IMG/VR virus record: IMGVR_UViG_3300012363_000216
Location: 1-31,052 of that record
From: a virus
Length of the DNA: 31,052 nt
Strand: one strand, 5' to 3'
The notes under the pieces are model-generated. The model was given only the letters and a program-made list of their open reading frames with translations, was not told the origin of the DNA and made no database searches. The translations under genes and the position numbers were made by a program. This document shows positions 6,551-31,052 of this stretch, piece after piece. Positions within the stretch are counted from its first letter, which is position 1. Each line of letters begins with the position of its first letter.

Positions 6551-7060
6551 GTGACAAGAGCGATCATACTAGTAGCGTTATTTTTCGTGGGTTGCGGTGG
6601 ACAGGGAGGGATCCCGAAAGCCTACATGAAGGATGTCGTGCAGACTTGCCATTTTCCGGGATTAAAGGCGGTTTACCTTCAAATCCCAGCCAACTGTGCT
6701 ACGATCGAACATAATTTCCATTTGGGTGGGGAAATTTTACAAAATCATAACATTTTAACTACAGCCGTTTACAATCATTTTTTTGATGACGTAGATGTCA
6801 TCGTGATGAACTCGGGATGTGTAGACGCTCCTGGTTTCCCAAGAGAAACGTGTGCGGTGATCGGGATATCCTATGATGAACCGCCAGCTTGGATCATGCT
6901 AGCCAATCATATGTCCCCGCTTTTGCATGAACTATTGCACAATCTAGATTATAATTTAGGAGTTAGTGACTACGACAATTACCATCATGTCAATTGGGAT
7001 ATTAAAGGCTATTTGGCTGCCGATAGTGAATTCAGGCGTGAAATGATTCCTATTTATTGA
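6551..7060 (+). CDS. Predicted lipoprotein with HExxH metallopeptidase motif
   Basis: Residues 1-14 (MTRAIILVALFFVG) form a short lipoprotein signal peptide ending in a lipobox with acylated C15 (FVGC). The mature protein contains several Cys residues suited to disulphides outside the cytoplasm. HELLH at residues 126-130 is the zinc-metallopeptidase signature, and candidate third ligands are H145/H146 (spacing HExxH-x14/15-H). Together these suggest a membrane-anchored periplasmic metalloprotease-like protein. It could act in lysis, in superinfection exclusion or in modifying the envelope; the function is not known. It is divergent from the endolysin. Its stop overlaps the convergent fibre gene by seven bases. 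Confidence 0.75.
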   Translation: MTRAIILVALFFVGCGGQGGIPKAYMKDVVQTCHFPGLKAVYLQIPANCATIEHNFHLGGEILQNHNILTTAVYNHFFDDVDVIVMNSGCVDAPGFPRETCAVIGISYDEPPAWIMLANHMSPLLHELLHNLDYNLGVSDYDNYHHVNWDIKGYLAADSEFRREMIPIY

Positions 7061-9510: not shown

Positions 9511-9536
9511 ATATTATTCTTTCTCTTAATAAAAGA

Positions 9537-9956
9537 TTAAATCTCTGAATCAGAATACCAAGTTAGACCTTCAAAGCTAAAAGATCCACGCATGACGCTG
9601 CGTTCATTAATTATCCAATTTTGAGTAATTACGGCCGCATCATCTAGCCTAAAAATTACTCTATCACTTGCACGATCTACCAATGAAAAGCTAACGTATT
9701 TCTCTAATAATAGATTACTTTGCGAAGCTGAAATCCCACGACCCTCAAGCCCCCCATCAAATCTGATTCGAACACACTGAATCCGTCCCGTAATAGAATA
9801 AGGTCCAGGTGCTAATTCAAATGGTATAATGGAATCAATTCCATATATTGCTTTACGGCCAGTATCAATACTGTATTCAAAAGAGTTAACTATACCCACA
9901 ACCCTATTATTTATATAGATTTTTACGGATCCCGATGTAAAAGTTTTAGTTCTCAA
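9537..9956 (-). CDS. Small virion protein, tail-tube-like (tentative)
   Basis: This is a 139-aa beta-rich protein. The start is TTG 9956, supported by GAGGA six bases upstream inside the end of the kelch gene. The pattern (a conserved GxVxIYINN start, then IPFELAPGPYSITGRIQ, and a C-terminal VMRGSFSFEG strand) recalls phage tail-tube proteins of the XkdM/gp19 type, which are about this size. I rate this as similarity of pattern, not a firm match. Lying between two large adhesin-like genes, it could instead be a connector between fibre and baseplate. Confidence 0.6.
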   Translation of the reverse strand: MRTKTFTSGSVKIYINNRVVGIVNSFEYSIDTGRKAIYGIDSIIPFELAPGPYSITGRIQCVRIRFDGGLEGRGISASQSNLLLEKYVSFSLVDRASDRVIFRLDDAAVITQNWIINERSVMRGSFSFEGLTWYSDSEI

Positions 9957-12296: not shown

Positions 12297-12339
12297 TGAT
12301 TATTAAATTTATTTAGGTCTACAATTCTGCTATTTTGCG

Positions 12340-12540
12340 TTACACTCGTTTTGGCGCTACCGGTATCCCCAGCGGTCTTCCCGTCTTAGACATTCGATGC
12401 GCACATCGGGGACAAAGGACGCCTTGCCCATCCAGCACCACATGGACGAAGAATTCGGAGTTGAGGGTGGGAGGATTCCCTTTGCCGACTACCATCCCGC
12501 ACTTATGGCATCCAACATCATCTTGATTGTGATGGCTCAT
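12340..12540 (-). CDS. Small zinc-ribbon protein between virion genes (66 aa)
   Basis: Two knuckles, CHKC (C11/C14) and CPRC (C43/C46), form a compact zinc-ribbon pattern. ATG 12540 overlaps the stop of the giant upstream gene as ATGA, which supports this frame over the two plus-strand frames here. It shares the raised GC content of the upstream module. A small zinc protein within a structural block is unusual; it may be an assembly factor for the giant protein, but this is speculation. Confidence 0.7.
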   Translation of the reverse strand: MSHHNQDDVGCHKCGMVVGKGNPPTLNSEFFVHVVLDGQGVLCPRCAHRMSKTGRPLGIPVAPKRV

Positions 12541-15500: not shown

Positions 15501-18500
15501 GTTGGTTTGATAGAAGCCGCCGAGGAAAATAGTGTTGATGGCTCCCGTGGCGTTAGTACTTACTCCGGGCTGTAAGCCAACCCAGACGGTATAACATCCG
15601 GGCGTAGTGGCCGACCGGATGTAAAGAATTTTGTTTGTATTATCAACGTCAACAATCTGCCCGGTATTGTCAATAGTGCTGAATGAAACCGAACCCGCGC
15701 AATTATTAACGAAAACCAAGTCCTGTACGTATTGCCAATTAACTACGCCGTCATTGGAAGTGGTGATACCTGTGGGAGCAGTCGCACCAGCGTTGCCAGC
15801 GGAAGTTGCACGATAGAGACGCTTTGGACGTTGTTGGTTGCCATTAATAATGAATTCCGCTGCCACCAAGTCGTTAATACTGTATGGAGTTCCGGTCTGC
15901 CAAGGTTGGGCGGTATTTTGACTCCAGCCCTTCATAATCAGCGCCGCAAAGGCGTTTTTGTTGATATTACTCAAATCGGGTAGATTTCCGGCGACTCCAC
16001 TCATGGTGAGGATGCTAAAACCTGAAAGGCCCCAAGTAGGAGGCAGCGAGTTAGCAGTAGGATCTGCCCATGCGATAGCTTTGCCTTGTGCCGGTGCCGC
16101 AGAACCCCCACCGATAACGTATGTATCATCGGTGCCAGTAGTTGGCGCTGTATCCTGATTCATGAAACGTTCGGTATTGCTGGTGCCAGCCGTACCGGGA
16201 GTGATGTAGAATGTCCAGGCGCGTGAAATGAAGTAAGTTCTAGCTGGGTTAAAATTGGCGACGCGGATTAGGATTGCTTGGTTCGCCAATACTGGTCCGA
16301 GTAGTCCTGTTTCGACTGTGGCCAAGGACTCACTATTATCTCCGGTTAGGGTTGCTTTTACGCGGTACTGTTGACCTGTCCCACCTGGCAAGTTAGAGCC
16401 AGTGCTATTGATTACTGATGCGCTGATAATAACTGGAATGTGGTCGGCCACCGTGACAGTATCTGGATTCCACCAAGCATTGTAACTTGGTCGGCTTACC
16501 GTCCCACCACCACTGTTGGCGAGTCCACTTGTCGTGTGTGTGAAAGTAAAGTGAGTACTGTCGATAATATTCAATACGGTCCAGTTACCGTTGTATGCAA
16601 CAACACCAGCTCCACCGATAAAGAAGTTATTTCCTGCCACTAAACCGTGAACTGAAGACGTGATAACAGTCACTACAAAACCAGACTCAGTAAGCCCAGT
16701 AGGAGCACTTGCGATTACTACAGCACCTGTGCCAGTGAACGGTGTCAGTTGATTGTCATAATTAATGTTTTCGACATTGGCAGGTAGCGGATGCGGATAG
16801 TTGACGGGCCATGACGTACCGTCCGACCGGAGACCTTGATACAAATCAAACAATGCCATCGCCGCGAGTACACCTCCTTGTGGGAACATTGGATTCCAAA
16901 GTTCATTGCTATATTCGACATAAACTTTTTGCGTTCCGAGAAGGGGCGGGTGCGCTGGGTTGACCTGTGGCTGCGTATATGGTGTGCCATCGAGAGTAGA
17001 TCCGAATGCGTACACTTGAGACATTTTAGTGACATAATCATCATCGGCTCCTACTGGGACATTTACCCATGAGTCAAGCTGCTGTTCGTTGCAGATGCGG
17101 ATTACGTTTTCGAGACTGATACCGGAAGAGAAGCTAGCTGCCTCATCCCGGAAGATGTTGGTGAATGGCGGATATTTTGTGCTGTTAGAGCCACCCACTG
17201 GCCAATCTGGTGGAGTGCGGGAAGCCCAATTAGTGTCTGAAAAATAATTCCCACCGTAACTACCCATCAATCGCAAGCTTTTGAACTGCGCATTCTGAGA
17301 CTTGGTTCTATCTGTGGAGAGCTGGCGAAACGGTTTGGGGTTCGGCGTTGGTCCGCCGGGCACGTCGTAGCCAGGTTGGCAGATAAGAAAGTCTGAGGCA
17401 ACTGAAGCCATCCCTCCAGTGCCTGTGCCGGTAAGAGTTATATAATTGGGAGTGGGAGTTTGGTCTAGCCAGAAGACGTATGTTCCTGGGTTTGGGTTGT
17501 TGGCATTGGAGCTATGAAACCAGACATGACCGATATAAGTACTGGTACCATCGTTATTGTTGATCGTAGATTCCCAATTGACGGTAGGACCAAGTCCTGG
17601 CGCACCGCCCCCCTGAACCGCCAGCACGGCTGAGGTGGGAACGCGCGCATAAATTAACAGCAGCCCGTAGTCTGCGGTTGGGTCTGCTGCTATCATCCAG
17701 ATTGTATTCCAGTCTTCAATAGGCCAGCCATTGGCCCCCAGCTTGGCAAAGCGTGCGCCAGTGACGTTTTGGAGGGCACGAGAAGCTTTGAACGTATTCA
17801 CCCAAGGTCGGGTAGTGTTGTATTCGACGAGTCCTGCCCACTCGTTGCCAATTAGCATTCCACCAGAGAGAAGAATCTGTGGTCCGAGCCCCCCGCTGGC
17901 AGTAACTACGGGTGCGATTGTGACTAAAGGATTAATGTTTAGATAAGCGCCAGAATTAGCTGTTCTTGAAACAGCCTGTGTGGTGGCTGGCAAAATAATG
18001 TTTGTAGATAAAGTGTCGCTTTGTGCGGCTATTGATAGTCTTGATTTATTATTCACGGTAAATGATGTGGGTCTATAAAATGCGACATCAGTTACAGTTA
18101 CTTGTGTTATAGATTGTGATACTCCAACCGAATTTACGACTTCAAAGAAGTTACTTGTAACATTTGCGATACTAAAAGTTCCTTGATTAACTGGATTAAT
18201 TTGAGTACCATATAGCGTTACATAGTCTCCAATTCTTACAAGTGTAAGATTGATGTTAGAAACAGTAGTAAATCTTACACGATTAGGAATTAATGTTGAC
18301 AATGAGGCTGGCGTATCAATAGTCCATTGTGTGCCTATAATTTGAGTAGTGGCCAATGATGTAGGAAATTGTAGTGTATTTTGAGCTTTCCCCCCATTTA
18401 TGCTTACTGTACCTTTAATCCCTAATGCCCCGGAATAAATTCTAATAATTTTTTGTTGAGTTGTAACATTTAAAATGGGTTTAGCGTATGCATTCAACCC

Positions 18501-19490
18501 TTTAAGCTGTAGTGATCGTGTTATTTTAGCGGCAATTTCAGTTGCAGTAGCAACCAAATTATTTGCAAAATCTATTATATTAAACAATACCGTTATTGTT
18601 TTACCATCGACATTGATAATTAAATCGTCTAAATCATTAATTATATAAGGTTCAGCCGAAATCGAATCAATAGAGGCCCTAAGTGCGTCAGCCCCATAAT
18701 AAATTTCTAATGTTTGTAAAAAACTTTGTAATGTAAGTTTTTGTGATCCTATATTGATAGCTAATTTTCTAAATGTATCATCCGAAATACCCACACCAGA
18801 TGGACGCACAAAACCATCGTCAGATGCTTTCCGATCCAAATATTTACCAGTTGCACTAGATTTAAACATTTGGTTGAAAGCTTGTCGACCGGTATTAAAT
18901 AGATAGTTGTCTCCGGCAGATAAACCAGCTATCAAGGCATCCCAACCGCGTCCGCTTAATGATTGATTAAAGTGTTTGCGAATAATATTTGATGGTGCAT
19001 CATTTAAAACAAATGTTCCCGCATTGGGTATTGAACTAGACACAATATTTGTGATTGTAAATTGTAATGAATTTGGAATTCCTAAAAGATCTCCCTTAAC
19101 GTCTTTAACATTACTAGCTGTAATAACCCAAAATCCGTTGATAAGTGGTTGTGTGACAGTTAAAAATACGCTTTGTGGATCTGATGCAACTGGTACCACA
19201 GATATAATTGTATTGGCTGCTGGTCCAATCAATGAATAATTGTTTGGATTTAGAGCATCATTTATTCCAAATGGATTGGATAATAGTGGGATTATTGTAT
19301 ATTTTAATTGAAGAATTGTTGGATTTAATTGTGTAATGCTTTGAAGGAAAAATGGAGAAACAATTGGTGGGGACGGTGTTCCAGATGATAATAAAATAGA
19401 TATTTCTTCTGGATCCCAATTGGGCAATTTTTGATAAAGTGTAGCGATAATCGGAGGTACCGCATTTAACCAAAAATCTTCATCAAACAT
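12537..19490 (-). CDS. Giant virion protein with glycoside-hydrolase-like module (2317 aa)
   Basis: Residues 1 to about 520 are AT-rich, beta-rich tail-type sequence (FDEDFWLNAVPPI start). Residues from about 535 match the pattern of a glycoside-hydrolase-like TIM-barrel family: WVNTFKASR with NGWP (about 555-580), LRLMGSYGGN with WASR, then LDSWVNVPVGADDDYV, then VYVEYSNELWN with the NE pair N862/E863 where clan GH-A enzymes place the acid/base. A PGE repeat copy interrupts this module (about residues 930-1000), and a FARR-like RFNARRAKRHRDRF region follows near 1340. Then come an FN3-like domain (about 1430-1510), another PGE-like copy (about 1595-1680) and a long beta-rich C-terminus ending in an Ig/cadherin-like domain. 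Polysaccharide binding or cleavage at the tail tip is likely. AGGG six bases before ATG 19490 is the ribosome binding site. Confidence 0.85.
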   Translation of the reverse strand: MFDEDFWLNAVPPIIATLYQKLPNWDPEEISILLSSGTPSPPIVSPFFLQSITQLNPTILQLKYTIIPLLSNPFGINDALNPNNYSLIGPAANTIISVVPVASDPQSVFLTVTQPLINGFWVITASNVKDVKGDLLGIPNSLQFTITNIVSSSIPNAGTFVLNDAPSNIIRKHFNQSLSGRGWDALIAGLSAGDNYLFNTGRQAFNQMFKSSATGKYLDRKASDDGFVRPSGVGISDDTFRKLAINIGSQKLTLQSFLQTLEIYYGADALRASIDSISAEPYIINDLDDLIINVDGKTITVLFNIIDFANNLVATATEIAAKITRSLQLKGLNAYAKPILNVTTQQKIIRIYSGALGIKGTVSINGGKAQNTLQFPTSLATTQIIGTQWTIDTPASLSTLIPNRVRFTTVSNINLTLVRIGDYVTLYGTQINPVNQGTFSIANVTSNFFEVVNSVGVSQSITQVTVTDVAFYRPTSFTVNNKSRLSIAAQSDTLSTNIILPATTQAVSRTANSGAYLNINPLVTIAPVVTASGGLGPQILLSGGMLIGNEWAGLVEYNTTRPWVNTFKASRALQNVTGARFAKLGANGWPIEDWNTIWMIAADPTADYGLLLIYARVPTSAVLAVQGGGAPGLGPTVNWESTINNNDGTSTYIGHVWFHSSNANNPNPGTYVFWLDQTPTPNYITLTGTGTGGMASVASDFLICQPGYDVPGGPTPNPKPFRQLSTDRTKSQNAQFKSLRLMGSYGGNYFSDTNWASRTPPDWPVGGSNSTKYPPFTNIFRDEAASFSSGISLENVIRICNEQQLDSWVNVPVGADDDYVTKMSQVYAFGSTLDGTPYTQPQVNPAHPPLLGTQKVYVEYSNELWNPMFPQGGVLAAMALFDLYQGLRSDGTSWPVNYPHPLPANVENINYDNQLTPFTGTGAVVIASAPTGLTESGFVVTVITSSVHGLVAGNNFFIGGAGVVAYNGNWTVLNIIDSTHFTFTHTTSGLANSGGGTVSRPSYNAWWNPDTVTVADHIPVIISASVINSTGSNLPGGTGQQYRVKATLTGDNSESLATVETGLLGPVLANQAILIRVANFNPARTYFISRAWTFYITPGTAGTSNTERFMNQDTAPTTGTDDTYVIGGGSAAPAQGKAIAWADPTANSLPPTWGLSGFSILTMSGVAGNLPDLSNINKNAFAALIMKGWSQNTAQPWQTGTPYSINDLVAAEFIINGNQQRPKRLYRATSAGNAGATAPTGITTSNDGVVNWQYVQDLVFVNNCAGSVSFSTIDNTGQIVDVDNTNKILYIRSATTPGCYTVWVGLQPGVSTNATGAINTIFLGGFYQTNPLANTSWIQRFNARRAKRHRDRFAATMGANRVRPTVGTRVTDSPGTAHVHSLYFQQGLVNGWWTNDLVPPQKISDLIYSYAAAPYASGCTPDGLFGFWAVPSLTLTSHSDDFQAAKTAVTRTAAIAVPAGLAVGAAAGSLPNATYSYRLAARNEVTKTAASSAVTRTGSGGNALTWTLVTGATQIRVYGRSSGTEKFLIELAGNATSWTDDGSLTPSTATEDMVTAALPKVTVVGAQTGFFWAVNDDAPIISRGYCFTSGASARRYRDTVLNIDVVEVTCTSPPFFSQYEVVGLPVGGPGFPGGKKQIIDLLSASGGSFGAGLPTVNVFRYAESGPYMTSVTALQYGTLGVLQYDDLPPGSPRQGRGGRLTSDWQFDWAGGDEFNSITANDIPFAKIFMQSTTPGSGAVYEVQPAFKGAQGNFIRMAYSQQVSASVVTTGNTNQPPSATNIITITVNFLAGSTNTTVTGQVAGDATATIYVLTVAVPGASDPVVPIAATNLSGGSDSFAPNSSLMLAPISDINHQTFCYAQAGPLGNPPAGPHLTLSYGITVNWLACYINNCLADPIGADNSPAFINCNAADGTQSMLYEFNIDVFTATYGQGVTKYGLFMVETPPSGGIPNYTAGGIPGAPPGVAFPYSGHLLETKYFLGLASYTVSFGSLFQGGSFPFGPIQWAMYPLTDSMHDYDRGQSVSPRQNALIDLQNSPAVLLTNGVQAPGELEGRNANGNNNNIGQNQLPWFDFGFQPANGNIYDFVIRGPGGGGDFLVIPNLSTFNGPGTQTFQWGFNGGLLSAPVPIPSTTNPDLAGSFGPPVDITTPIPVHLKQGVNGFRFFINGQPNPNVLLNSIVVLRTDRTGVLFRRPYFYGSTFALGSIPGSSPAIGRIFPSVPHVAGATQNQAFYFGGSSNMTLTAVSNNTFLLPNANIQPTVRQGFNGIGNTNYRVDLTILGGLPAIGGICRIYFTVKDNNNPNSTNNTAQFILTVTII

Positions 19491-19493
19491 TAT

Positions 19494-22400
19494 TTACCCT
19501 AAACTTGAAATTGAGATATCGGTATCCAAGTTTAAAATTCTTGGCTTTTCGTTAGCCTGTACAGGAATCAAATCTTGGGTGGATGTGTATGTGGGAGATA
19601 AGATTACTACTGATGATGCACCGTCGATTGCCTGAGCAGCCCCAACGATATTGCCTAAAGCAATCGATTGACCAACATTTGTTCCATTAATTAAAGCAGC
19701 AACAGCACTTTTAACTCGATTGCTAACATCTTTTGGTGTAGCACCAGTACGATACCTTATTCCTAAAGCTACTTGAATGCGTTTAGTCAATGGACCACTT
19801 ATATTAACTGTGCCTGCTGCGACTCCGGGATAAACCGCTGGATTTGTTTCGTCTCCATAAACTACTTTGTTTACTTCGGCTAAAAGCCCTGTGTTAAATG
19901 TATATCCATCCAATCCCGTTATCAAAGTTGTTGGAAAATTAAGTTTATCTAGTGCTGTTATAATTGAACCAGCGCTTGTACTAATTTTATTTGCATAGGC
20001 CGATGTGGTAAAAATAATGTCATAAAAATTCGTATTTGCATTTAAGTTTATTGTACGAATTTTTTTAATTAATCTAATTGGATTTTGTTCTTTATCTTGT
20101 ATAAATATAAAATCATTGCCCAATGTTGTAGCTGATATGGTTGTCAAATTGCCGGTAACATAAAAGTCGGTAGGGATAGTCCCAAATACGGTTTGAATAG
20201 CGACACTGGGAAGATTAGAACCATTTTCGTTATATTGGAATGAATTGGTGGCTATTGCCGTAATTGTTTTATTACCGGCAGAAAAAAGGGTCTCACCTGG
20301 AGACACAGTGATTGTTTGACCAACTGCAAATGGATGACCGTTTAATGTAACCGTAACCGTGTTGCCACCAGTTCTTACTAACCCACCAATTGGAATTGAG
20401 AATGATGGCTCATTTAAACGACTGACTAGGTAAGATCCAATATTAGATGTTCCAAATATTGGTGTACCAATTGTAAATGTATCTCCTGGTATGATACTGT
20501 CATAGCTTAAAAACTTGATCCAGTCCCCGGCAATTAGCGTTTGTATCTCTTCCACTCCGCCGGTATTTTCAACCCAAAATGTATTAGTGTTCGGGTCAAC
20601 CCTTACTATTTGTTTAAATCCGGTATTTGAAAAATTGAAGTTGGTAACTTTGATGTATACCCAATCGCCTTCTAAGATCGAGCCCGATAACGTTGTAGGA
20701 GTAGGCGTATCGTCGATATAGGCCATAAAGCGGCCTTGACGTTCAATTTGATATGTATTTAATGTTCCAATTACTTGACGCTGATTTACAACAACCGGAG
20801 TTGCAGGATCAAAGTTAATTCTGAATTCACCAGTATTTGGACTTGTTCCAATAAGCATTAAGCTTGTGCTAGTCCAAGGTACAATTTTAGGCATTACATT
20901 GGTTCCCTGAATGCTTACGTTGGTATCCCCTGTAAATCCCTTGATTTGTGTAACCGGAATTTGAATACGAGTAAAATTACCTACGGCTTGTCCGGTCCCA
21001 TTGACGGTAGCACTAGCTGTATTGCCAGTCCCAGTTGAAACTTGAATTGCACCACCCGATCCAATTGTATTTGACGATAATTTTAGTTTACGACTATTAC
21101 TTGATGATGTAATTGTAGCATTTGAATAAAATCCACTGATAGCAGGACTTCCTAAATAATTGACTAAATTATTAACCGTGATTGGGACTAAACGCATGTT
21201 CTCTGCTGAAAAGTTTGCATTGGAAGTTAATTCTCCGGATACAGCATTTTTAAGACCTAGAAGTCCACTATTAAGTGTAAAGTTGGTACTTTGAATCCAA
21301 TTTAATCCATCAAAAAATGGCCATGCTGCAAGCGATTGAGCGCCAGCGCCCTGTATACTGGCATTATTAATTGATTGATTAAATTCTTCGACCGTAGCAT
21401 TTAAAATGGTTCCAGCTCCAGTATTAATTGTACCCCCGTTATTAGGAACTAAGATCGCAGATACAATATTTGAGGCCGAAGTATTACCATTAATAAAATT
21501 TACAATATTTCCCGCAGTGTTTTGTATGGGATCAATTGGATAAAAACGTAAGTTCAAGGCAGAATTTATTTTTAATGGTATGGTATTCCCAGTATAGCTA
21601 TTGTCTGATGCTAAAAATGAGAATCTAGTTGAAGATACGTCGAATACTCTAAAATTGCCCTTAACTTGTGAATCTAGTGCAGTCGCATTGTCAATATGTG
21701 CAACATTGCCTGCTACAACAGGAGTTGCACCGCCAGTGAAGTTAGGATTAGTTGAGGCTGGAGTGAAATATTGCGTGACAGTACTTGCGGTAGTTGTACC
21801 GGGTTCAATATATGTAAAAGTAGTCGTTGTTACTCCGGTAATTATTTTAGCCCCAGATGGATAATTCGCTTCGCCAGGATTTAGGAAAATAACATCGCCA
21901 ACATTAAATGAATGAGCACTGACAATAGGAGTAGTATTAATCGTGGCCGTAACTACGTTAGAAGCATTTCGTACTAGGTTTCCGATTGCTATTTCGGCTT
22001 GAAAATATTGCAAATATGTTTTAACGCACTGGCCACTACTTACAGTATAATTTACTCCTGGAATCAAAGTCGCGGCCGCATTGACACTTACTTCGGCCCA
22101 AACAACCGTTGTCCCCGTAACAGCGGTCACGGTCTTAGCCCCAGCCGCAGAAACAACACCGGTTCCGGATGCGTCGGCGTGGCCAGGTTGGAAATAAATG
22201 GTTTGACCTACGACAAAGTTATGAGTTGCAGAAGTTGTAGCGGTGATCGTTGTTCCATTAGAGTTTAAGGCTGTAACGGTAAATGTTGTTCCGGCTGCAC
22301 GTTTGCTTACCAAATAGCTGATTGAAGCATTTGAGGTGGCATTGGCTGCGATTTCATTGTAGCTAAATGTATTGGCTGATACAGCAGTAATTGATTTAGG

Positions 22401-25400
22401 TCCAGATGGCAATGTGTTGTTGGTATTGGTTTGATATACATTATCTCCTACTGACAATGTGTTGGTTTGGGTTACCCCGGCTGCGGCTAAAGTAACAACA
22501 ACCACGTTGGTAGTACGGACAACATTTCCGCTGGTTGCTGTATAAGTAGTAAAGGAAGTCGTAACAAATTGATTATTACCGTTTGTGCTTAATCCAGTTC
22601 TTTCAATCCCTGACGGAAGGCTAACATAAATATTAGCATTACCGTTTAATGTATCGGTCGATACAGATATTGGCTGGTTGGGTGCTGATGGATTTATGTA
22701 TTGCAAAAGCGCGTTATTACCATCAGATCCATATCTAGCAAGACGCCATAAAATCGACGTATTAGCGATAATGGAATGAGATTTACCTCTAGGGTGCATA
22801 TAAAGAGCAAAATCATTAAAAAATGTTGTGGAAAGACCAAAGGATGTTGATAATGATACGTTATTATTATCAACATCCAAAAATAAGAATGGCGCAGATC
22901 CATATGTCGCGGCTGGATCTGGTTTAACATTTCTAAATAAATTAATATTATAATTTTTGGCAACGGTATCTTGATCTAAGATAATATTTATGTTATCGTC
23001 GGAAGCTATACTAAATGCTGTAGATGTATAAAATCTGTCCGAAATCAGCCTTTCCAACGATGTTATTGTGGAACGAATTGTATAAACATTATTAACAAAA
23101 CTACTCAATGGAGCATAATCATATGCATTGGTTCCATAGCGTCGTAAAAATGCGGTTGCTGCTTGCGGACTTGGGCGAAGTGCAACAGTAATTCCTTGAT
23201 TAGCTGCCGCAATGCTTGCTGTAGTTGTCTGCGATGCTGTAGCGCCAGGACTTGTAGTAGTAAAATCGGCAGCATCTAATGACGCGGGTGTGCCACCACT
23301 TATACCGCCAGATTGACGATGATTTAATGATCCACCATCAGTAAATGTAGAGTTACTTTCAAAACCAAAAAAGCAAACACCCAAAGTGTTTTGGGTAATA
23401 GTTGTGAGACTAGGGGCAGTGCCGGTTGTGCTAGAGGCATTGGTCTGCCCCACAGCGGTTACATCTATCGGTGTCAAATTGTTTATATTAACATAACCTA
23501 GCGTAAATCCAACTGTTTGAGTGTTACTAGTGAAGGTCCAAGCGGTAAATGAGGCTGTCCCTAATCCCCAATATACCGCTGTACCGCTGGTTGTACCATT
23601 ATCGGTACGATTAGCTAAAGTCCATCCAGATGGTGGAGTGATTGTAACATTAGTACCGCCGCCGTAATGGAATCCGGCCAAAACAACGTCGGTACTAATA
23701 GTTCCCGTAGGGGCCGCTACGGTAATATTGCCCGAGGCAACAGTTACCACTGTACCGGCATTTCGAAATGCGATTGTTTGATCTAGGCGTTTGCGAAATG
23801 TTAACATGTCGCCGGTTCTAAAGCTGATTAAGGTGTTGTTTGTCCCGGTAAATGTTGTAGATGATGGTACAGTAGCAACTGTAGTCCATTGGAAATTGGG
23901 AGTATTAACTTCGCTATTAGTTGTTTCAATGGTAGCAAAATGTGTTGGATTATTTTTGCTTAATTTGCCACTTGGCAGGAAAAGTATTTGACCATTGAGA
24001 TCGGCGGTGACCAACATGATATCGCCGGTCGGATTTAACGAGTTAGTCGATATTCTTAGTTGGGTATTCCTATATACCGAAGAGGTAGCTCCAACTAAAG
24101 TTGAGTTTAATGTTGAAACTAAGCTAGTCAATGAATATGTCCCGGCAAGAATTGATATATTTTGAAGCTGAGTTGCGTTAGTCCTTACAAAAACCATTCC
24201 AGCATTGCTAGGTGAAGCGCTTTGTAAAGTAATTATGCCTCGTTCAACATCAAACCAAGCCCAATTGGCAGGATTGCCATCGCCCCCATTGTTTATATCT
24301 GAGATCCTAAAAGCTCCTTTGTCGGTGAAACCTGGATCCCAAATCACTACATAGTCACCTACTTGAATAAATCCCGTACTAGCCCCTACTGTTCCAAATG
24401 TCCCATTGCTAGCCGTATATCTAACTTTATTAGTTGTACCGGCAGGCTGAGTTAATGTAAAAGATGTCGAGGCCGTAACTCCGGTGCTTAATATTTGTGC
24501 CGCACTATCTACTGCAAGCCACAAATTTGCCACTCCTGATAATATGATATTTGAAGTAATAGATGGCGATTGTATATACCCAGCCGTAAACGATGTAGCG
24601 GCAACTAGATTGTCACCTACAACTAACGAATTAGTTAACTTTAATTGACCGGTGTTTCTATTGAAAGTATAATCGTTATTAGATCCGGTCGAAGAACTAA
24701 TATTAAACATACCTTTGGAAACAAGCGTACCACCGGTAATTTTAATCGAAGATCGTGCGTTGGCTCCCAAATTACTTGTAATAGTTAAGAGTCCCCCGAT
24801 ACTCGCCGCTGTGATTCCAGTAATGTCAGAATTTAATACTGTAGCCCAAGATGCCAATGAATTATTAGAACTAACTGTAGTATATCCTGTACTATTATTG
24901 ATAAAGTCAGTATTACGAATCGTAACTGTTTGGATGGGAGTATTGTCAACTTGGATAATTAACGTATCTCCGTCGGCAATTGTAGTTGCCCAAGTGTTTT
25001 GAGCATTGCTTGAAATGATAGCAAATCTACCATCTTTAAATAATAATTGATCGTTTTTGTATAATCTTAAAGTATAAGATAAAGTGGTAGGAAATGATAA
25101 AAATGTATTTGCATTAGTGCCACTTGTTGGAGTAACTACTTGGATGTCTTCATTGGTATCAGATTTAGAAAAGATACTTACTTTTGTGCCAGTAGCCGCC
25201 GATCTGGCGTTCCATAACAATGTTGGATTACTATTGATTGACGCTACAATTTCGAATACTTGAGCATTAGAAATTGATGTAAATGAACTCGCAGCAAATG
25301 TATGAGTCGTCAATATGCCGCCAACCTGGACAGCCAGTACCGATCCCGCAGTTACATTAAATGGCGCAACATTGGTTGTAGTTACAAATGCTTTAGTAAC

Positions 25401-26498
25401 TGGTCTTTGGGATGATAACTGAAAAATTTGTTCTCCACCCAAAGCCGTATCCATCAATGTTTCTTGTGGAATACCGGAAGTGGTTTCTTCGTATCCAGTA
25501 CCATCATCGATAATTAATGCCGGAGTACTGCCAGTGGTATTGATCACGGAAGCGCTGACTACGGTTTTATTGTCAAAAGTAGATGTTACTCCCTTAACAT
25601 TGGTGATTAAGGCTAATGGGGTCCCTTTTTGACGAGATTGTCTCGTATTTTTAATTCTTTCACGTAATGCTAGATCGTCTTCTGCGGCTTGACCATTGGT
25701 AAAGGGTAAAGAATTGTTGACTGACATTCCAACAAATGACGGCGAAGTCACTTGATTAATAGCACCAACCGGGACATTGCCAATCGTGCCAGGAGTTTGA
25801 GCTACTACGTCAAGGCTGGGTAAGAAATTTTCCCCATCCTGGATTGTATTATTGAATAATGTTGTAAACTTAATCGCATCTGAAACATTACCTTGCTGGG
25901 TTTGGACGATTGTACCAGCAGAAATCAATCGATTCCCACCTTGGGCTAAAATAACTGTTTCGCCTAAATTGTGGAATTTAATGGTTCCAGTATCTAGTGT
26001 TATTGTCCAAAATGATCCATTATTTACTGGTGGATTTAATCCATTGGTATTATATGGTTTAGGTCCTTCGTAATTGACCGTGGTACGACCAATATAAATT
26101 GAGCCTTTAACCGGAAATTTGGACGCATCAGTTACTTTAAGGACAGTTGTTCCAATACCCGGTGCAGCGACACCTTGATAAACAGTAGTTGCAATTTTAG
26201 TAAAACTAATATCTGAAAAATCTACCGTACCCGTAGCGGGGGTAACTGAAATGCGGGTTAAATTTTCATCATTGGCAATGCGATCTAATGCTTGTGCTTC
26301 GGCTCGATCAATCGATAATGAATCAAGCATCATAAAAACGTCTTGTGATCCTCGAATATCCGATTGAGCGGCAGCTTCAATAATTGACAATAATGGACCA
26401 GCGACTTTGACGTTTTTCAATCCTATGCGTGATAGGAATGAATCCAAAATATCACTGACTACTTGGTTATATGAACGGGGAATCGGCTGGTCGGCCAA
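19494..26498 (-). CDS. Baseplate J-like protein, giant form (2334 aa)
   Basis: The N-terminus (ILDSFLSRIG, ALDRIANDENLTR, then VDFSD) and a region near residues 255-300 (GMSVNNSLPFTNG, DLALRERI) match baseplate J/gp47-type proteins. The family C-terminus appears about 1900 residues later (LLAEVNKVVYGDE, RIQVALGIRYRTG, DVSNRVKSAVAALING, VGAAQAIDG). Normal members have 300-400 residues, so about 1850 residues are inserted between the two halves. The insert has four PGE repeat copies, GD-type repeats and a lectin-like segment (PSGWTLANRTDNG, about residue 960). It should form the baseplate wedge and display extra binding domains. The start is TTG 26498, supported by AGGAG eight bases upstream. 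Only three bases separate its stop from the next start. Confidence 0.88.
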   Translation of the reverse strand: MADQPIPRSYNQVVSDILDSFLSRIGLKNVKVAGPLLSIIEAAAQSDIRGSQDVFMMLDSLSIDRAEAQALDRIANDENLTRISVTPATGTVDFSDISFTKIATTVYQGVAAPGIGTTVLKVTDASKFPVKGSIYIGRTTVNYEGPKPYNTNGLNPPVNNGSFWTITLDTGTIKFHNLGETVILAQGGNRLISAGTIVQTQQGNVSDAIKFTTLFNNTIQDGENFLPSLDVVAQTPGTIGNVPVGAINQVTSPSFVGMSVNNSLPFTNGQAAEDDLALRERIKNTRQSRQKGTPLALITNVKGVTSTFDNKTVVSASVINTTGSTPALIIDDGTGYEETTSGIPQETLMDTALGGEQIFQLSSQRPVTKAFVTTTNVAPFNVTAGSVLAVQVGGILTTHTFAASSFTSISNAQVFEIVASINSNPTLLWNARSAATGTKVSIFSKSDTNEDIQVVTPTSGTNANTFLSFPTTLSYTLRLYKNDQLLFKDGRFAIISSNAQNTWATTIADGDTLIIQVDNTPIQTVTIRNTDFINNSTGYTTVSSNNSLASWATVLNSDITGITAASIGGLLTITSNLGANARSSIKITGGTLVSKGMFNISSSTGSNNDYTFNRNTGQLKLTNSLVVGDNLVAATSFTAGYIQSPSITSNIILSGVANLWLAVDSAAQILSTGVTASTSFTLTQPAGTTNKVRYTASNGTFGTVGASTGFIQVGDYVVIWDPGFTDKGAFRISDINNGGDGNPANWAWFDVERGIITLQSASPSNAGMVFVRTNATQLQNISILAGTYSLTSLVSTLNSTLVGATSSVYRNTQLRISTNSLNPTGDIMLVTADLNGQILFLPSGKLSKNNPTHFATIETTNSEVNTPNFQWTTVATVPSSTTFTGTNNTLISFRTGDMLTFRKRLDQTIAFRNAGTVVTVASGNITVAAPTGTISTDVVLAGFHYGGGTNVTITPPSGWTLANRTDNGTTSGTAVYWGLGTASFTAWTFTSNTQTVGFTLGYVNINNLTPIDVTAVGQTNASSTTGTAPSLTTITQNTLGVCFFGFESNSTFTDGGSLNHRQSGGISGGTPASLDAADFTTTSPGATASQTTTASIAAANQGITVALRPSPQAATAFLRRYGTNAYDYAPLSSFVNNVYTIRSTITSLERLISDRFYTSTAFSIASDDNINIILDQDTVAKNYNINLFRNVKPDPAATYGSAPFLFLDVDNNNVSLSTSFGLSTTFFNDFALYMHPRGKSHSIIANTSILWRLARYGSDGNNALLQYINPSAPNQPISVSTDTLNGNANIYVSLPSGIERTGLSTNGNNQFVTTSFTTYTATSGNVVRTTNVVVVTLAAAGVTQTNTLSVGDNVYQTNTNNTLPSGPKSITAVSANTFSYNEIAANATSNASISYLVSKRAAGTTFTVTALNSNGTTITATTSATHNFVVGQTIYFQPGHADASGTGVVSAAGAKTVTAVTGTTVVWAEVSVNAAATLIPGVNYTVSSGQCVKTYLQYFQAEIAIGNLVRNASNVVTATINTTPIVSAHSFNVGDVIFLNPGEANYPSGAKIITGVTTTTFTYIEPGTTTASTVTQYFTPASTNPNFTGGATPVVAGNVAHIDNATALDSQVKGNFRVFDVSSTRFSFLASDNSYTGNTIPLKINSALNLRFYPIDPIQNTAGNIVNFINGNTSASNIVSAILVPNNGGTINTGAGTILNATVEEFNQSINNASIQGAGAQSLAAWPFFDGLNWIQSTNFTLNSGLLGLKNAVSGELTSNANFSAENMRLVPITVNNLVNYLGSPAISGFYSNATITSSSNSRKLKLSSNTIGSGGAIQVSTGTGNTASATVNGTGQAVGNFTRIQIPVTQIKGFTGDTNVSIQGTNVMPKIVPWTSTSLMLIGTSPNTGEFRINFDPATPVVVNQRQVIGTLNTYQIERQGRFMAYIDDTPTPTTLSGSILEGDWVYIKVTNFNFSNTGFKQIVRVDPNTNTFWVENTGGVEEIQTLIAGDWIKFLSYDSIIPGDTFTIGTPIFGTSNIGSYLVSRLNEPSFSIPIGGLVRTGGNTVTVTLNGHPFAVGQTITVSPGETLFSAGNKTITAIATNSFQYNENGSNLPSVAIQTVFGTIPTDFYVTGNLTTISATTLGNDFIFIQDKEQNPIRLIKKIRTINLNANTNFYDIIFTTSAYANKISTSAGSIITALDKLNFPTTLITGLDGYTFNTGLLAEVNKVVYGDETNPAVYPGVAAGTVNISGPLTKRIQVALGIRYRTGATPKDVSNRVKSAVAALINGTNVGQSIALGNIVGAAQAIDGASSVVILSPTYTSTQDLIPVQANEKPRILNLDTDISISSLG
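20260..20387. repeat. DNA repeat copy B (PGE domain, baseplate gene)
   Basis: Partner of 11401-11528, in the same orientation. Identical blocks lie at 20260-20281 and 20363-20387. It encodes the first PGE copy when counted from the C-terminus of the baseplate J-like protein. Confidence 0.8.
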
Positions 26499-26545: not shown

Positions 26546-26956
26546 TTATCCCACTACTATATTTTCGATGTTCATTCGATTAGCGTATTCAACAATTCGA
26601 GGCATTTTAACTGGACCATAATAAACCAGTCTTTTAATGCCTAAAGCGACTAAAATCTTAAATGTAATCCAATTAGGTTGATCTGAAGAATACATGGTGG
26701 CTTGATTTAAATTGCCTCCGGCGCGAATGGCTGAACCTAGACATACAACTTCAGCATTAATGGTGGCGACGTAGTGTTCACCAGTTTCCTGCATTCCGCC
26801 TGCTGCTTCGGCAGGATCCAGATGGGCACTGGTACCAACACCTAAAATTTTATTTCCTTCAGCCAACACGGCTCCGCGTTTTTTGGAAGATGTGGTTTTT
26901 TGTCCTTGCATTTGAGCTATTTGAAGGAAATGCTGGTCAATATTGTTTAATGGCAT
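26546..26956 (-). CDS. Deaminase-fold protein lacking zinc ligands
   Basis: The protein aligns well with dCMP/cytidine deaminases: GAVL strand, NAE, ATMY strand, and GIKRLVYYG after the second motif. The zinc ligands are replaced, however. HAE is INAE (N67, with E69 kept) and PCxxC is PNWIT (N95, T98 instead of the two Cys). It is therefore probably not a zinc deaminase. It may be a regulatory or structural relative, or bind nucleotides only. It sits 47 bases upstream of the baseplate gene on the same strand and may begin the structural operon. No Shine-Dalgarno precedes ATG 26956. The fold assignment is strong; the function is unknown. Confidence 0.8.
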   Translation of the reverse strand: MPLNNIDQHFLQIAQMQGQKTTSSKKRGAVLAEGNKILGVGTSAHLDPAEAAGGMQETGEHYVATINAEVVCLGSAIRAGGNLNQATMYSSDQPNWITFKILVALGIKRLVYYGPVKMPRIVEYANRMNIENIVVG

Positions 26957-27002: not shown

Positions 27003-27809
27003 ATGTTTGAATTAAAAGAAGCAATTTTTAATGAAATACAATTTCCAGATACCCCTTTTAATTTAAAAGAAAATTGTATTATGTTGGGACGACGGGGTTC
27101 TGAGGCTCACGGAACCTATATAAAGCCCGAAGATCCCAATGGAATTGACGATCGGGATCTTTTGGGATTAGTTATTCCGCCTAGAAACTTTTACTTAGGA
27201 TTAAAGGATTGGACCCACGCCGAAGCAATTAAGGGGGTGTGGGATGTTGTATTGTATGAATTTAGAAAGTTTATTGGATTATTGATGAAACAAAATCCAA
27301 ATGTACTTTCAATGCTTTGGTTAGACGAAAGTGATTATTTGTATCAAAATAGTCAATTCTTCATGCTTAAAGAACATCGAGATTTATTTAGATGTAAAGA
27401 TCTGGCCTATAAATGTATCGCTGGATATGCTTATAGTCAGTTAAAGCGAATGACCCACTATGATATTGATGCTTCAAGAACGGGTCGATACATGGGGGCG
27501 AAGCGTAAGGCATTGGTTGAAAAATATGCTTACGATGTGAAGAACGCCGCTCATTTAATACGATTATTGAATATGGGCAATGAATATCTTGAAACTGGCA
27601 AGATGCAAGTCAAACGGACCCACGATCGGGAATTAATTATCGATATTAAGAAAGGTAAGTATACTTTGGATGAAGTCCAAAATATGGCCCAATCTAAATT
27701 CGAGAGACTAGACTATGCCCAGAGCCATAGTCTGCTACCGGAAACGATGGACGAAAAGGCTATCGAAGACTTAACAATCAAGATACTTGAATGGAGGTTA
27801 TTGAATTAA
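27003..27809 (+). CDS. RlaP/YcgL-like nucleotidyltransferase
   Basis: The N-terminus has the nucleotidyltransferase signature GRRGSEAHGT (G32/S33) followed by DDRDLLG, with metal-binding D50 and D52, in the spacing of the polymerase-beta superfamily RlaP group (DUF/PF10127 type). The remaining 200 residues are helical and basic (RTGRYMGAKRKALVEKY, KNAAHLIRLL), as in that family. Relatives are linked to RNA repair or nucleotide addition to RNA. Here it may repair or modify tRNA during infection, which is inference. It is 268 aa, typical for the family. It ends in a one-base overlap (TAATG) with the next small gene. Confidence 0.85.
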   Translation: MFELKEAIFNEIQFPDTPFNLKENCIMLGRRGSEAHGTYIKPEDPNGIDDRDLLGLVIPPRNFYLGLKDWTHAEAIKGVWDVVLYEFRKFIGLLMKQNPNVLSMLWLDESDYLYQNSQFFMLKEHRDLFRCKDLAYKCIAGYAYSQLKRMTHYDIDASRTGRYMGAKRKALVEKYAYDVKNAAHLIRLLNMGNEYLETGKMQVKRTHDRELIIDIKKGKYTLDEVQNMAQSKFERLDYAQSHSLLPETMDEKAIEDLTIKILEWRLLN

Positions 27810-28030
27810 TGTATTGTATTAAAAAATATAATTTAGTTTGGTTGATTGTAAATGAACAAATGTACAATCAAAAGTTGAAGTATATCTCTAGTGTCAATGA
27901 CACAATGGTACACAGCGCTCACCTCTATTACCATAGAGCTAAAAAAACATTTAAGCGATTAAATGGATCTTCTCTCTATTGGACCGAGGTATGGTCAGGA
28001 TCGTCGTCCACGGTTTATCGCGATTGCTGA
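27809..28030 (+). CDS. Small hypothetical protein, possible relative of the paralog array
   Basis: The ATG at 27809 overlaps the nucleotidyltransferase stop (TAATG) and is preferred over ATG 27791, giving 73 aa. It has a CIKKYNLVWLIV opening and later a Tyr-rich HLYYHRAKKTFKRLNG stretch. This order (IKK, aromatic strand, then Y plus a basic helix) loosely resembles the five paralogs at 29458-30903. The similarity is weak and might be chance. The 56 bases after it show no clear terminator. Confidence 0.55.
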   Translation: MYCIKKYNLVWLIVNEQMYNQKLKYISSVNDTMVHSAHLYYHRAKKTFKRLNGSSLYWTEVWSGSSSTVYRDC

Positions 28031-28086
28031 GAGAAGTAGATGAACTAATTCGGCAAGTCCGCGCATTCACAACTGAACTATGATTT

Positions 28087-28704
28087 TTATTTAGCTAATT
28101 CTTGGGAAAGATCGTTATTCTTTTCCCGGATTTCTTTGGGAATCTCTTTCATTTTTTCTTTTAATGTAGAACTCTTAGGCTCAGCTTGCCGTTGAGTCCA
28201 GAGGCGTATCGATTTTTCGGTAATAAACTCCGCCATACAGGGCTTGATCAATTCTAGTTGATCAGCCATGGTGCGGGTTACTTTGACGTGTTCGTGCTTA
28301 CCTTCGCCTAAATGCTTTAATACCCATTGATCCTTGATGTGTAATTTGCCTCGGCGATGGGATTGAAGGCTGTAGAGCAGGGTAGCCCTTTGAGGCCCGT
28401 ATTTCTTCCAATAATTCTGGGAAGCTTTTTCGAATTTGGCTACCAAATGACGCCGGATCTTTATTATTCGATAAAATTCTGGGTTGCGTTTCTCCCAGAA
28501 AATCCAACTTGGGACATACCTCGGTGGAAGCGCTGGCAAGACGAACGGATCGGGCTTATGAGGAAAATGATGTTGACGTTCCCAATTAACATCACGAATC
28601 GCTTGCTTAAGCTTAATTATGTCGAATTGATCGGGATTAAACTCATTTTCCTCAAGTATCATTTGCCAGAAATTCTTTTCAGTTAATTTTCCATTGGTTT
28701 CCAT
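28087..28704 (-). CDS. Basic hypothetical protein (205 aa)
   Basis: This unrecognised protein is rich in Lys, Arg and Trp, with a proline-rich segment (PDPFVLPALPPRYVPSW, about residues 52-68) and a highly charged C-terminal helix (LKEKMKEIPKEIREKNND). A DNA- or RNA-associated role is possible from charge alone. ATG 28704 has the purine-rich leader GAAAGAATAA, like the fibre gene at 9510. It follows the small membrane protein gene on the same strand. Confidence 0.7.
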   Translation of the reverse strand: METNGKLTEKNFWQMILEENEFNPDQFDIIKLKQAIRDVNWERQHHFPHKPDPFVLPALPPRYVPSWIFWEKRNPEFYRIIKIRRHLVAKFEKASQNYWKKYGPQRATLLYSLQSHRRGKLHIKDQWVLKHLGEGKHEHVKVTRTMADQLELIKPCMAEFITEKSIRLWTQRQAEPKSSTLKEKMKEIPKEIREKNNDLSQELAK

Positions 28705-28814
28705 GTTTATTCTTTCGCGTAATGCCGGGATTTTTTGCGGTTTTCAATAGTACTAGAAATTGCGCAATTGGTTGAATTTGGCTCGAAGCCAATAATAGAA
28801 ATATATGGCGTACT
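28705..28814 (-). other. Intergenic region with inverted repeats
   Basis: This 110-base gap contains a perfect hairpin, TTGGCTCGAAGCCAA (28778-28792, six-base stem), and a 12-base palindrome, AATTGCGCAATT (28758-28769). Neither is followed by a T-run, so a standard terminator is unlikely. They could be operator-like sites or an RNA processing site between the two minus-strand genes. Confidence 0.35.
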
Positions 28815-29015
28815 TCATAGCTTACTCCGAACCCACTGCTTTTTCCAGCGTAAATAGTACGAACATAGCCCTGGAATTTGACAAACCCACACAAGTGGCA
28901 AACACAAGGCGTAATACCACCAAGTTCCTTTGCCATCAATTATCGTATAAATCGTAAATAATATTAAAATTGCGGCCCAAAATAAGCTAAAAATATTTTC
29001 AACTTTTAATTTCAT
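28815..29015 (-). CDS. Small two-helix membrane protein (66 aa)
   Basis: Starting at ATG 29015 gives a protein with two hydrophobic segments (ENIFSLFWAAILILFTIYTI and YYALCLPLVWVCQIPGL) joined by a short DGKGTWW turn, and a basic C-terminal tail (RWKKQWVRSKL). A longer frame from 29087 exists, but the promoter found here ends six bases before ATG 29015 and favours the short form. It could be a holin-like or envelope protein; size and two-helix hairpin fit, but nothing proves it. Confidence 0.6.
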   Translation of the reverse strand: MKLKVENIFSLFWAAILILFTIYTIIDGKGTWWYYALCLPLVWVCQIPGLCSYYLRWKKQWVRSKL

Positions 29016-29021
29016 TAGAGT

Positions 29022-29050
29022 AAAGTAGCATAAGATCGGGTGAAGGTCAA
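29022..29050 (-). promoter_or_regulatory. Candidate promoter for the small membrane protein gene
   Basis: On the minus strand, TTGACC (29050-29045), a 17-base spacer and TACTTT (29027-29022) form a sigma70-like promoter with TGC before the -10. Six bases separate it from ATG 29015, which again predicts a leaderless transcript. Confidence 0.55.
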
Positions 29051-29051
29051 G

Positions 29052-29080
29052 TTGCCTTTCCCCAGTAAAAGTGGTACTAT
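29052..29080 (+). promoter_or_regulatory. Promoter for the ParB-fold gene and paralog array
   Basis: TTGCCT (29052-29057), a 17-base spacer and TACTAT (29075-29080), with TGG before the -10, end six bases before ATG 29087. Its -35 box is separated by one base from the -35 box of the divergent promoter, so the two may compete for polymerase. Confidence 0.6.
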
Positions 29081-29086
29081 CCTCCA

Positions 29087-29464
29087 ATGGCTTATCAGTG
29101 GATTAATATCAATAAATGTGTGCCACCACATAGAATTACTGACTATAAGAAGGCGATAGAATTATATTTTTCAATGAAAAAAGAGGGTGGTTGGAAAAAG
29201 GGGGCCGAAGTCTTGGTCGGATACTGGATTCCTTGGCATATATTGAAAAATCGTTATCCACGGGTTAATTGCGCGATTAATTTACACCATAGCATTGATC
29301 AGCAAATGGTCCAACTGGTCTCGGGGGGCCATCGTTTGGCGGCAGCCCAACGCGCTGGATTGTCTCAAATCCCGGTGCAGGTTTTGACTTACAAAGAAGC
29401 TAATGATATTTGGGGTAGCGACAAGTGGGTAGATCTTTTAAGTCATCCGGGGGTTAAATGGTAA
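29087..29464 (+). CDS. ParB/sulfiredoxin-fold protein
   Basis: The motif LVSGGHRLAAAQRAGLSQIP (S79-G80-G81-H82-R83, then AAAQ and IPV) is the ParB box II signature, which binds or hydrolyses CTP or cuts DNA in ParB-like nucleases. At 125 aa it has only the ParB/Srx core, with no helix-turn-helix domain, so it is not a full partition protein. It heads a plus-strand run of small genes and overlaps the next by seven bases. A role in DNA binding, regulation or nuclease activity is inferred. Confidence 0.8.
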   Translation: MAYQWININKCVPPHRITDYKKAIELYFSMKKEGGWKKGAEVLVGYWIPWHILKNRYPRVNCAINLHHSIDQQMVQLVSGGHRLAAAQRAGLSQIPVQVLTYKEANDIWGSDKWVDLLSHPGVKW

Positions 29465-29736
29465 TTACTAGGGTTAATCGTGCTAGTCCGCACATCGATT
29501 TAGTAACATTTGGTGGATCCATTCATTGGGACGATATTTACATTAAAAAAACATATACCCATGTGGCGGGTACAATGTGGGCATTGATGGGTAAAATTAA
29601 TGGCGATCCGGCTTTTTACGCATTGTCCTGGGCTTTGACTTATCAACAAACGAGGAATATATTCCGATTGCCGATGGTCCATTGGAATACCGCTTATCGA
29701 TTTTATGATATGAAATATCTTTTTAACGATTTATGA
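29458..29736 (+). CDS. Paralog array member 1 (92 aa)
   Basis: This protein is of unknown function. It shares a core with the next four genes: an Asp followed by an aromatic-Ile-Lys-Lys strand (DDIYIKK, residues 25-31), a WALMGKINGD strand and turn, an aromatic AFYALS strand, and a helix starting YQQTRNIF. ATG 29458 lies inside the end of the ParB-fold gene, so translation is probably coupled. The N-terminus and C-terminus are not conserved among the paralogs. Confidence 0.7.
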   Translation: MVITRVNRASPHIDLVTFGGSIHWDDIYIKKTYTHVAGTMWALMGKINGDPAFYALSWALTYQQTRNIFRLPMVHWNTAYRFYDMKYLFNDL

Positions 29737-29742
29737 GATTTT

Positions 29743-30027
29743 ATGGTAAATTATAAATGGTTCTCGTTATCGACCGTAATACGTTTTCACGATGTTTTTA
29801 TCAAAAAGATTCAAGGTCGTTATTTTAAATGGTGGGTCATGATCGGAAAAGTACATGAAGGAACCTCCGGTGGACATGTGCAGGATGAGTATTGGTTTTT
29901 GACGCATTCTAGCTCTTATGATCAGGTCCGTCCTCATTATTTGCGTTTAAAACACGATGGGTTTACCCGCAGGATACTTGTGACTTATTGGGCGTATGAT
30001 TGGCGGGAGTTTGCTAAGATATTATGA
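29743..30027 (+). CDS. Paralog array member 2 (94 aa)
   Basis: The core is HDVFIKK (residues 16-22), WWVMIGKVHEG, EYWFLTHSSSYDQVRPHYLRL. The loop between the two strands is longer than in its relatives (about 10 extra residues, GTSGGHVQDE). The conserved Y..(V/I)R..Y..L helix is clear. It starts six bases after member 1 and overlaps member 3 by ATGA. Function unknown. Confidence 0.7.
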   Translation: MVNYKWFSLSTVIRFHDVFIKKIQGRYFKWWVMIGKVHEGTSGGHVQDEYWFLTHSSSYDQVRPHYLRLKHDGFTRRILVTYWAYDWREFAKIL

Positions 30028-30317
30028 ACTGTTGGATTCTTGACCACTGGGAACACGAGGAATTGGTTGAATTATTCGATTATCCCCATTTTTACGACCT
30101 TTACATTAAAAGAGTTCTTCCTAATTTGTACTTTTTAGTTGGGACGATTTTAAATGATCCTTATCTGTACCTTCTTCAATATGGCGATTATTCTCAGGTA
30201 CGTATAAATTACCGACAGCTTAGAAAGGAAGATAACTTTGCTCACGATCGAATTTATTGGCGGGCAATGAAAATCGAAGGGTTCATTGAACGTAGACGCA
30301 GGAGTGGTGGTTTATGA
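30024..30317 (+). CDS. Paralog array member 3 (97 aa)
   Basis: The core is YDLYIKR (residues 24-30), LYFLVGTILND, LYLLQYGDYSQVRINYRQL. The second Lys of the IKK motif is Arg. The N-terminus is acidic (HWEHEELVELF) and the C-terminus strongly basic (ERRRRSGG). It overlaps both neighbours by ATGA, evidence that the array is translated as a coupled string. Confidence 0.7.
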   Translation: MNCWILDHWEHEELVELFDYPHFYDLYIKRVLPNLYFLVGTILNDPYLYLLQYGDYSQVRINYRQLRKEDNFAHDRIYWRAMKIEGFIERRRRSGGL

Positions 30318-30625
30318 TTCGATCCCTTGGATTCAGGCATACTTCTCTTTTTAGTCGGTGGGTGTTCATCGAGCTGGTAGAGGTTGAAAGGGGAACATTT
30401 CGATACGACGAAGTTTTCATCAAGAAACACCTGGTTCCGGACGGTGTAGAATGGTTTATATTGGGTCGATTTGACGGAGATTCCCATTTTTATTTGTGTA
30501 CTTATATGGCCAGCTATCCTAAGATACGACGTGAATATCATCGGTTGATGGCGAATGATAGGGTTATACGAGGTTCTAATATATTCCGAGTCGATCGATG
30601 GGAAAAGTTTTACACACCCGCATGA
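30314..30625 (+). CDS. Paralog array member 4 (103 aa)
   Basis: The core is YDEVFIKK (residues 31-38), WFILGRFDGD, FYLCTYMASYPKIRREYHRL. It has the longest N-terminal extension of the set. After the core, a GSNIFRVDRW segment matches GTGIFRIASP in member 5, so these two are probably the closest pair. ATGA overlaps occur at both ends. Confidence 0.7.
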   Translation: MIRSLGFRHTSLFSRWVFIELVEVERGTFRYDEVFIKKHLVPDGVEWFILGRFDGDSHFYLCTYMASYPKIRREYHRLMANDRVIRGSNIFRVDRWEKFYTPA

Positions 30626-30903
30626 AACATAAAATCATTAAAATAATTAACATGACGCCTAGCGTAGCCGAAGTCTTTTTTGCATCGTATTCCGTCAGAT
30701 TCGATGAAGTATTCATTAAAAAAATGCCTGGAGGTCTCTATCGACTGGTTGGCAAACTGGACGGAGGATATTATTGGTTGGCCACGCGCACGCAGTATTA
30801 TAACCTTAAGCGTCTTTATGGTCATGTTATTAGTAGTTGTATTTGGATCTTGAATGGTACGGGCATTTTCCGGATAGCTAGTCCCACAACAGTTTGGATG
30901 TAA
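30622..30903 (+). CDS. Paralog array member 5 (93 aa)
   Basis: ATG 30622 overlaps the stop of member 4 (ATGA) and is preferred to the upstream ATG 30598. The core is FDEVFIKK (residues 27-34), LYRLVGKLDGG, YYWLATRTQYYNLKRLYGHV, then GTGIFRIA. The IKK and GK(L/I)xGx elements are the best conserved between members. The function is unknown. Confidence 0.7.
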   Translation: MKHKIIKIINMTPSVAEVFFASYSVRFDEVFIKKMPGGLYRLVGKLDGGYYWLATRTQYYNLKRLYGHVISSCIWILNGTGIFRIASPTTVWM

Positions 30904-30904
30904 T

Positions 30905-31052
30905 ATGTGTATGAAATGTGGGAAAAGGACCGGGATACCAAGAGAAAAGGGCGGATGTTCGTGTGCTTACGATCGAATCCAAGCCTGTATTGCTTCCGGC
31001 AAACATCTGATGGTAGAACAATATAATCATTTGTTGAAATGGCTGGAGTGTA
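30905..31052 (+). CDS. Partial zinc-ribbon protein, cut by window end
   Basis: An open frame from ATG 30905, one base after the preceding stop, runs off the window after 49 codons. It starts MCMKCGKRTGIPREKGGCSC, with CxxC (C2/C5) and CxC (C18/C20) plus C28, a compact zinc-binding pattern. It continues the paralog operon. The 3' end is not seen. Confidence 0.65.
   Translation, partial: MCMKCGKRTGIPREKGGCSCAYDRIQACIASGKHLMVEQYNHLLKWLEC

Follow-up and report, generated by a model that had tools for sequence, protein, structure and literature searches.

The locus at 29458-30903 (+ strand) raises the question of why a virus should carry a row of small genes that resemble one another and little else, and of what their products might do. 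The window analysed here is the whole IMG/VR record, a fragment of 31,052 bases, and the row comprises five consecutive open reading frames: gene 1 (29458-29736, 92 aa), gene 2 (29743-30027, 94 aa), gene 3 (30024-30317, 97 aa), gene 4 (30314-30625, 103 aa) and gene 5 (30622-30903, 93 aa), giving products of 92-103 aa with the starts used in the initial annotation. That annotation described most of the genes as joined by ATGA overlaps, which holds for three of the four junctions, the exception being the 6-nt gap between genes 1 and 2. The frame of gene 5 can also be read from 30598 (101 aa), and 30622 is most likely its start, because the ATGA overlap there continues the pattern of the two preceding junctions. 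The array ends 150 bases short of the contig end; the count of five therefore applies within the fragment, and more copies may lie past it. The next gene, cut by the contig end (30905-31051, +), encodes a Cys-rich protein (CxxC...CxC) without resemblance to the array family.

The five proteins had been proposed to be paralogous, and their mutual homology is borne out by profile searches. A profile built from any four members recovers the fifth, with E values of 1.6e-10, 1.7e-7, 5.7e-6, 4.6e-11 and 9.3e-7 for genes 1 to 5, the best non-member among 1,814 ORFs (from the window and three related phages) scoring 0.1 or worse. This is a stronger test of homology than shuffled pairwise alignment, in which the local alignment scores of eight of the ten pairs exceed those of 1000 shuffles (z 5.5-13.2). 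Measured against the first row of each alignment, the proteins show 24-31% identity, and they share a core that consists of a (D/H/Y)(D/E)(V/I/L)(F/Y)IK(K/R) segment, followed by a (W/Y)x(L/I/M)(M/V/I/L)G strand, an aromatic strand and a YxxxR helix. The IKK and (W/Y)x(L/I/M)xG strand motifs of the original description stand, while its helix motif, YxQ(V/I)RxxY, is complete in only two of the five proteins (genes 2 and 3) and is better written as YxxxR. Invariant in all five are the I and K of the IKK strand, the G, the Y and the R, and so is an additional Arg, although its position in the alignment is uncertain. The protein ends vary from copy to copy, and the divergent N-termini contain no common targeting segment.

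The family had also been described as rapidly diversifying, a view that the synonymous sites do not bear out. Where two aligned copies have the same residue (other than Met or Trp), their codons are synonymously different in 54% of pairs; complete saturation would give 58.5% with the codon usage of this phage. Such near-saturation of synonymous sites implies that the duplications are old and that selection at the protein level has preserved the residues in common; recent tandem duplication is ruled out by the same figure. The codon comparison indicates that the core is under purifying selection, and all five reading frames are intact. With paralogs this old, adaptive divergence or fast evolution of the ends is beyond measurement.

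Sequence searches place the family outside known ones. No match was found in Pfam, PHROGs, NCBIfam, PADLOC or the PDB sequences, in agreement with the first impression that no known family was recognisable, and these same collections yielded no homology to a known anti-defence protein or inhibitor. No homolog was detected in 50,697 phage records (tblastn with three members; blastn), in the IMG/VR viral contigs (a pattern-based scan with two alignments and one single protein) or in the GTDB bacterial genomes (also pattern-based); the IMG/VR and GTDB scans rely on short conserved peptides and could miss distant relatives. Single members gave isolated matches at E 0.03-0.05, which is chance level. 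A direct precedent for tandem small-protein arrays in jumbo phages was likewise not found in the literature. The protein family is thus new, while the tandem expansion of a small accessory viral protein is a known phenomenon.

Structure prediction, which had been suggested as a further check, yielded a predicted core and no significant structural match. An AlphaFold2 model of gene 4 from the five-row alignment (mean pLDDT 74, about 83-94 over residues 31-80) has the order strand-strand-strand-helix, flanked by one short strand on the N-terminal side and two on the C-terminal side, so that the core is predicted with moderate confidence to be a compact alpha/beta unit of three antiparallel strands and a helix, the fold coming from this one model. 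A Foldseek search of BFVD and the PDB with the model gave no match at E < 0.3. The best VIA-align hit, AcrIIA13b (Z 3.7), lies under the noise level stated for the tool and was set aside.

The composition of the proteins introduces the main rival to a role in binding host proteins, namely that they are small RNA- or DNA-binding modulators of transcription or translation, in which the IKK strand and the YxxxR helix would form a basic face and the copies would differ in the site or RNA recognised. Four of the five proteins are basic (pI 9.3-9.9), the invariant I, K, G, Y and R columns would suit such a surface, and there is a weak resemblance to the dsRBD and WGR folds. This resemblance is below noise (Foldseek E > 1; Z < 4), however, gene 3 has a pI of 6.4, and no known nucleic-acid-binding family is matched, leaving this explanation somewhat unlikely.

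The genomic setting was established by comparison with related phages. The best named match of the window helicase is by far that of Myxococcus phage Mx1 (41% identity), and comparison with the gene order of the Mx1 genome (PMC10720576) shows that the two are collinear through primase, helicase, a ClpP-like protein, peptide deformylase, endolysin, tail genes and baseplate J, with homologous proteins in shared order at about 30-56% identity. The window shares this gene order with two IMG/VR contigs as well, G001 (50.8 kb) and G002 (160 kb), to whose proteins its own are roughly 24-56% identical. Judged by gene order and protein identity, it comes from the genome of a tailed phage that is a distant relative of Mx1. 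The helicase ORF of G002 (L017:4739-7264, +) is about 1 kb longer than those of its relatives, and may contain an insertion such as an intein. The genes at 2-26956 are largely syntenic with the relatives, and the shared part ends at a deaminase gene (26546-26956) that is also present in G001 and G002. For the genes at 27003-31052, no homolog was found in Mx1 (76 kb compared), G001 or G002, and the array is for this reason placed in a variable accessory region. The array family itself was sought in the whole Mx1 genome, and was not found in the whole records of Mx1, G001, G002, G003 (by its array almost the same virus as G001) or Agrobacterium phage Atu_ph07; profile searches of the relatives' genomes gave no match at E < 0.2.

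This absence bears on the idea that the five paralogs assemble into one hetero-oligomeric machine, such as a ring or sheet, instead of acting as five independent effectors. A row of genes with coupled starts, similar sizes and a shared core would be expected of such an assembly. An assembly would also set limits on copy number, however, and all relatives examined lack the family; the idea is improbable.

The accessory region starts with a gene for an RlaP-like nucleotidyltransferase (27003-27809, +; PHROG 388, E 1.4e-43), which has its own promoter match and no homolog in the relatives. The row that contains the array is headed by a gene at 29087-29464 (+), which overlaps gene 1 by 7 nt and encodes a 125-aa protein with weak likeness to ParB N-terminal and sulfiredoxin (Srx) domains (Pfam ParB_N E 0.0076, under the curated cut-off; PHROG ParB-like 5e-4); the five paralogs follow, and then the Cys-rich gene that runs off the contig. 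A sigma-70-like promoter match (29043-29086, +; TTGCCT-17-TACTAT) ends 6 nt 5' of the 29087 ATG, a near-leaderless arrangement, and the same layout is seen 5' of 27003 (+) and, divergently, of 29015 (-). These three sites have the best promoter scores in the window (7.8, 7.6 and 7.5), with a score composed after the first two sites were seen; a start within the 29087 gene also scores 7.5. In total, seven starts in the window reach 7.0 or more, while a reversed-sequence control has none, but with fewer starts (51 vs 159). These sites are missing from the output of a standard promoter scan, in which promoter-like matches were not in excess. The promoter of the row is thus a consensus match only, and suggestive. 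In G001, the first accessory gene (L012:12104-) is preceded by a promoter match of the same shape. In the window and in G001 alike, 5-7 nt separate the match from the ATG, a spacing that would suit near-leaderless transcripts. The row is probably one transcript from this putative host-type promoter, and its expression would for that reason probably be early.

The orientation of the row is also informative about a possible place in the virion. Giant-phage ejection proteins form paralogous families, and the array lies downstream of tail genes, as might be expected if its products were internal or ejected proteins comparable to giant-phage head and ejection proteins or to the internal proteins of T4. 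The tail and baseplate genes (7054-26498, -) are, however, on the opposite strand, the array stands behind its own promoter match, and the differing N-termini offer no shared targeting segment. Ejection proteins are reported in giant phages (PMC5694885). A virion role for the array proteins has only a slim chance of being correct.

The relatives carry arrays of their own. In G001 (L012:665-2556, -), seven tandem paralogs of the form MNFxIPLxRRRxR... have Ser/Arg-rich tails and ATGA-type links, and G003 contains the same seven-copy array (L026:1704-3595, -); this IPLIRRR array gave no family match. G002 has a family of 24 copies of 56-97 aa, most at L018:13550-19470 and others at L019:127-885 and 13140-13695 (all -). 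Its members begin with a conserved segment (MKTRLTRxxRxYPSIPWYLKxWRSS) and end in a low-complexity tail of Ser, Gly and Tyr, and none of the other genomes examined contains the family. G002 also has a row of about six 'MWI' proteins (L019:14657-16261), about four of which are supported by leave-one-out profiles, and directly upstream of that row lies a second deaminase-like gene (L019:16173-16535, -; dCMP_cyt_deam_1 E 5.9e-12). Like the window family, the MWI proteins have strands followed by a C-terminal helix; homology between the two was rejected (hhalign probability 0.2%; MWI model pLDDT 66, with a different strand layout). Mx1 has three tandem DUF6197 genes (L007:42435-43496, -) adjoining the baseplate J end; its CVIGQL genes, four to five in tandem, lie in another part of the genome (L034:38779-40263, -). 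The Mx1 arrays are annotated as hypothetical, and the genome announcement does not discuss them. Membership of the window family in DUF6197 was also rejected, with no match to PF19698, which the Mx1 proteins match at E 1e-19 to 1e-20.

The relatives' arrays sit among variable genes, mostly downstream of baseplate J, and profile searches found none of their families in a second genome at E < 1. Judged from this comparison of four genomes, a small set that includes fragments, the group shares the habit of carrying arrays but not the identity of the arrays. It is doubtful, though conceivable, that this reflects a general rule, in which each lineage of the Mx1 group amplifies a different, unrelated small-protein family to 5-24 diversified copies, the habit persisting while the identity turns over, so that the window family would be an example of these repertoires, its fold and its host target both new. 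The same observation can be read without any function: if the accessory region simply tends to duplicate small genes, whose copies have little present role, every relative examined would be expected to have a tandem array of a different family, as is seen. Near-neutral proliferation of this kind is difficult to reconcile with five intact frames and with residues kept despite nearly saturated synonymous sites, and is quite unlikely.

The best explanation is that the array is a lineage-specific expansion of small, probably early, host-directed binding proteins, with a probability of roughly 0.4. One small cytoplasmic phage protein would have been tandemly expanded within the variable accessory region; its conserved core may serve as a scaffold, on which the variable ends and loops would determine what each copy binds, and together the five may form a small repertoire of host-directed binders, either takeover proteins or anti-defence inhibitors. 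The unrelated arrays of the relatives, in the same variable part of the genome, suggest such a stock of diversified host-directed proteins. The initial annotation had proposed inhibitors or decoys, and the setting is compatible with such a role (variable region, compact row, sigma-70-like match, arrays in relatives). Several points weigh against an inhibitor role: no known inhibitor or defence-related family is matched, the basic character and the conserved Lys, Arg and Tyr fit nucleic-acid binding equally well, the divergence is old and saturated with no sign of an arms race, the moderate-confidence model has no significant structural match, and the promoter is a consensus match.

The most interesting part of these results is the turnover of unrelated arrays between related phages. 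Orphan phage arrays offer a practical way of finding new proteins for anti-defence or host takeover, and the combination of a collinear core with arrays that are replaced by unrelated ones in every relative examined marks the accessory region as an obvious target for such a search. Why small genes are duplicated here is a question that can be tested in Mx1, an isolated phage with a laboratory host, Myxococcus xanthus.

Among known systems, the ejection proteins of the giant Salmonella phage SPN3US offer a parallel in which a large phage delivers several of its proteins to the host cell; those are virion proteins, and there is no sign of this for the array products (PMC5694885). The seven-copy array of G001 and the 24-copy array of G002 are likewise tandem small paralogs downstream of baseplate J and the deaminase, but have low-complexity Ser/Arg- or Ser/Gly-rich tails and no sequence relation to the window family, for which a compact fold is predicted instead. 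The Mx1 DUF6197 (PF19698) triplet and CVIGQL quartet are also tandem small paralogs in variable genes, unrelated to the window family, and DUF6197, unlike that family, is common enough to be represented by a Pfam model. The AcrID1 arrays of Sulfolobus rudiviruses belong to a different virus realm and have a known function, and the likeness to them would be one of behaviour, not of membership or sequence similarity. Of 35 AcrID1 homologs, 26 are grouped near one another in four rudivirus genomes, where they sit with early anti-defence genes (PMC11065993), and in both cases multiple divergent paralogs of a small protein are clustered in close proximity, among variable and (in the window, probably) early small genes of unknown function.
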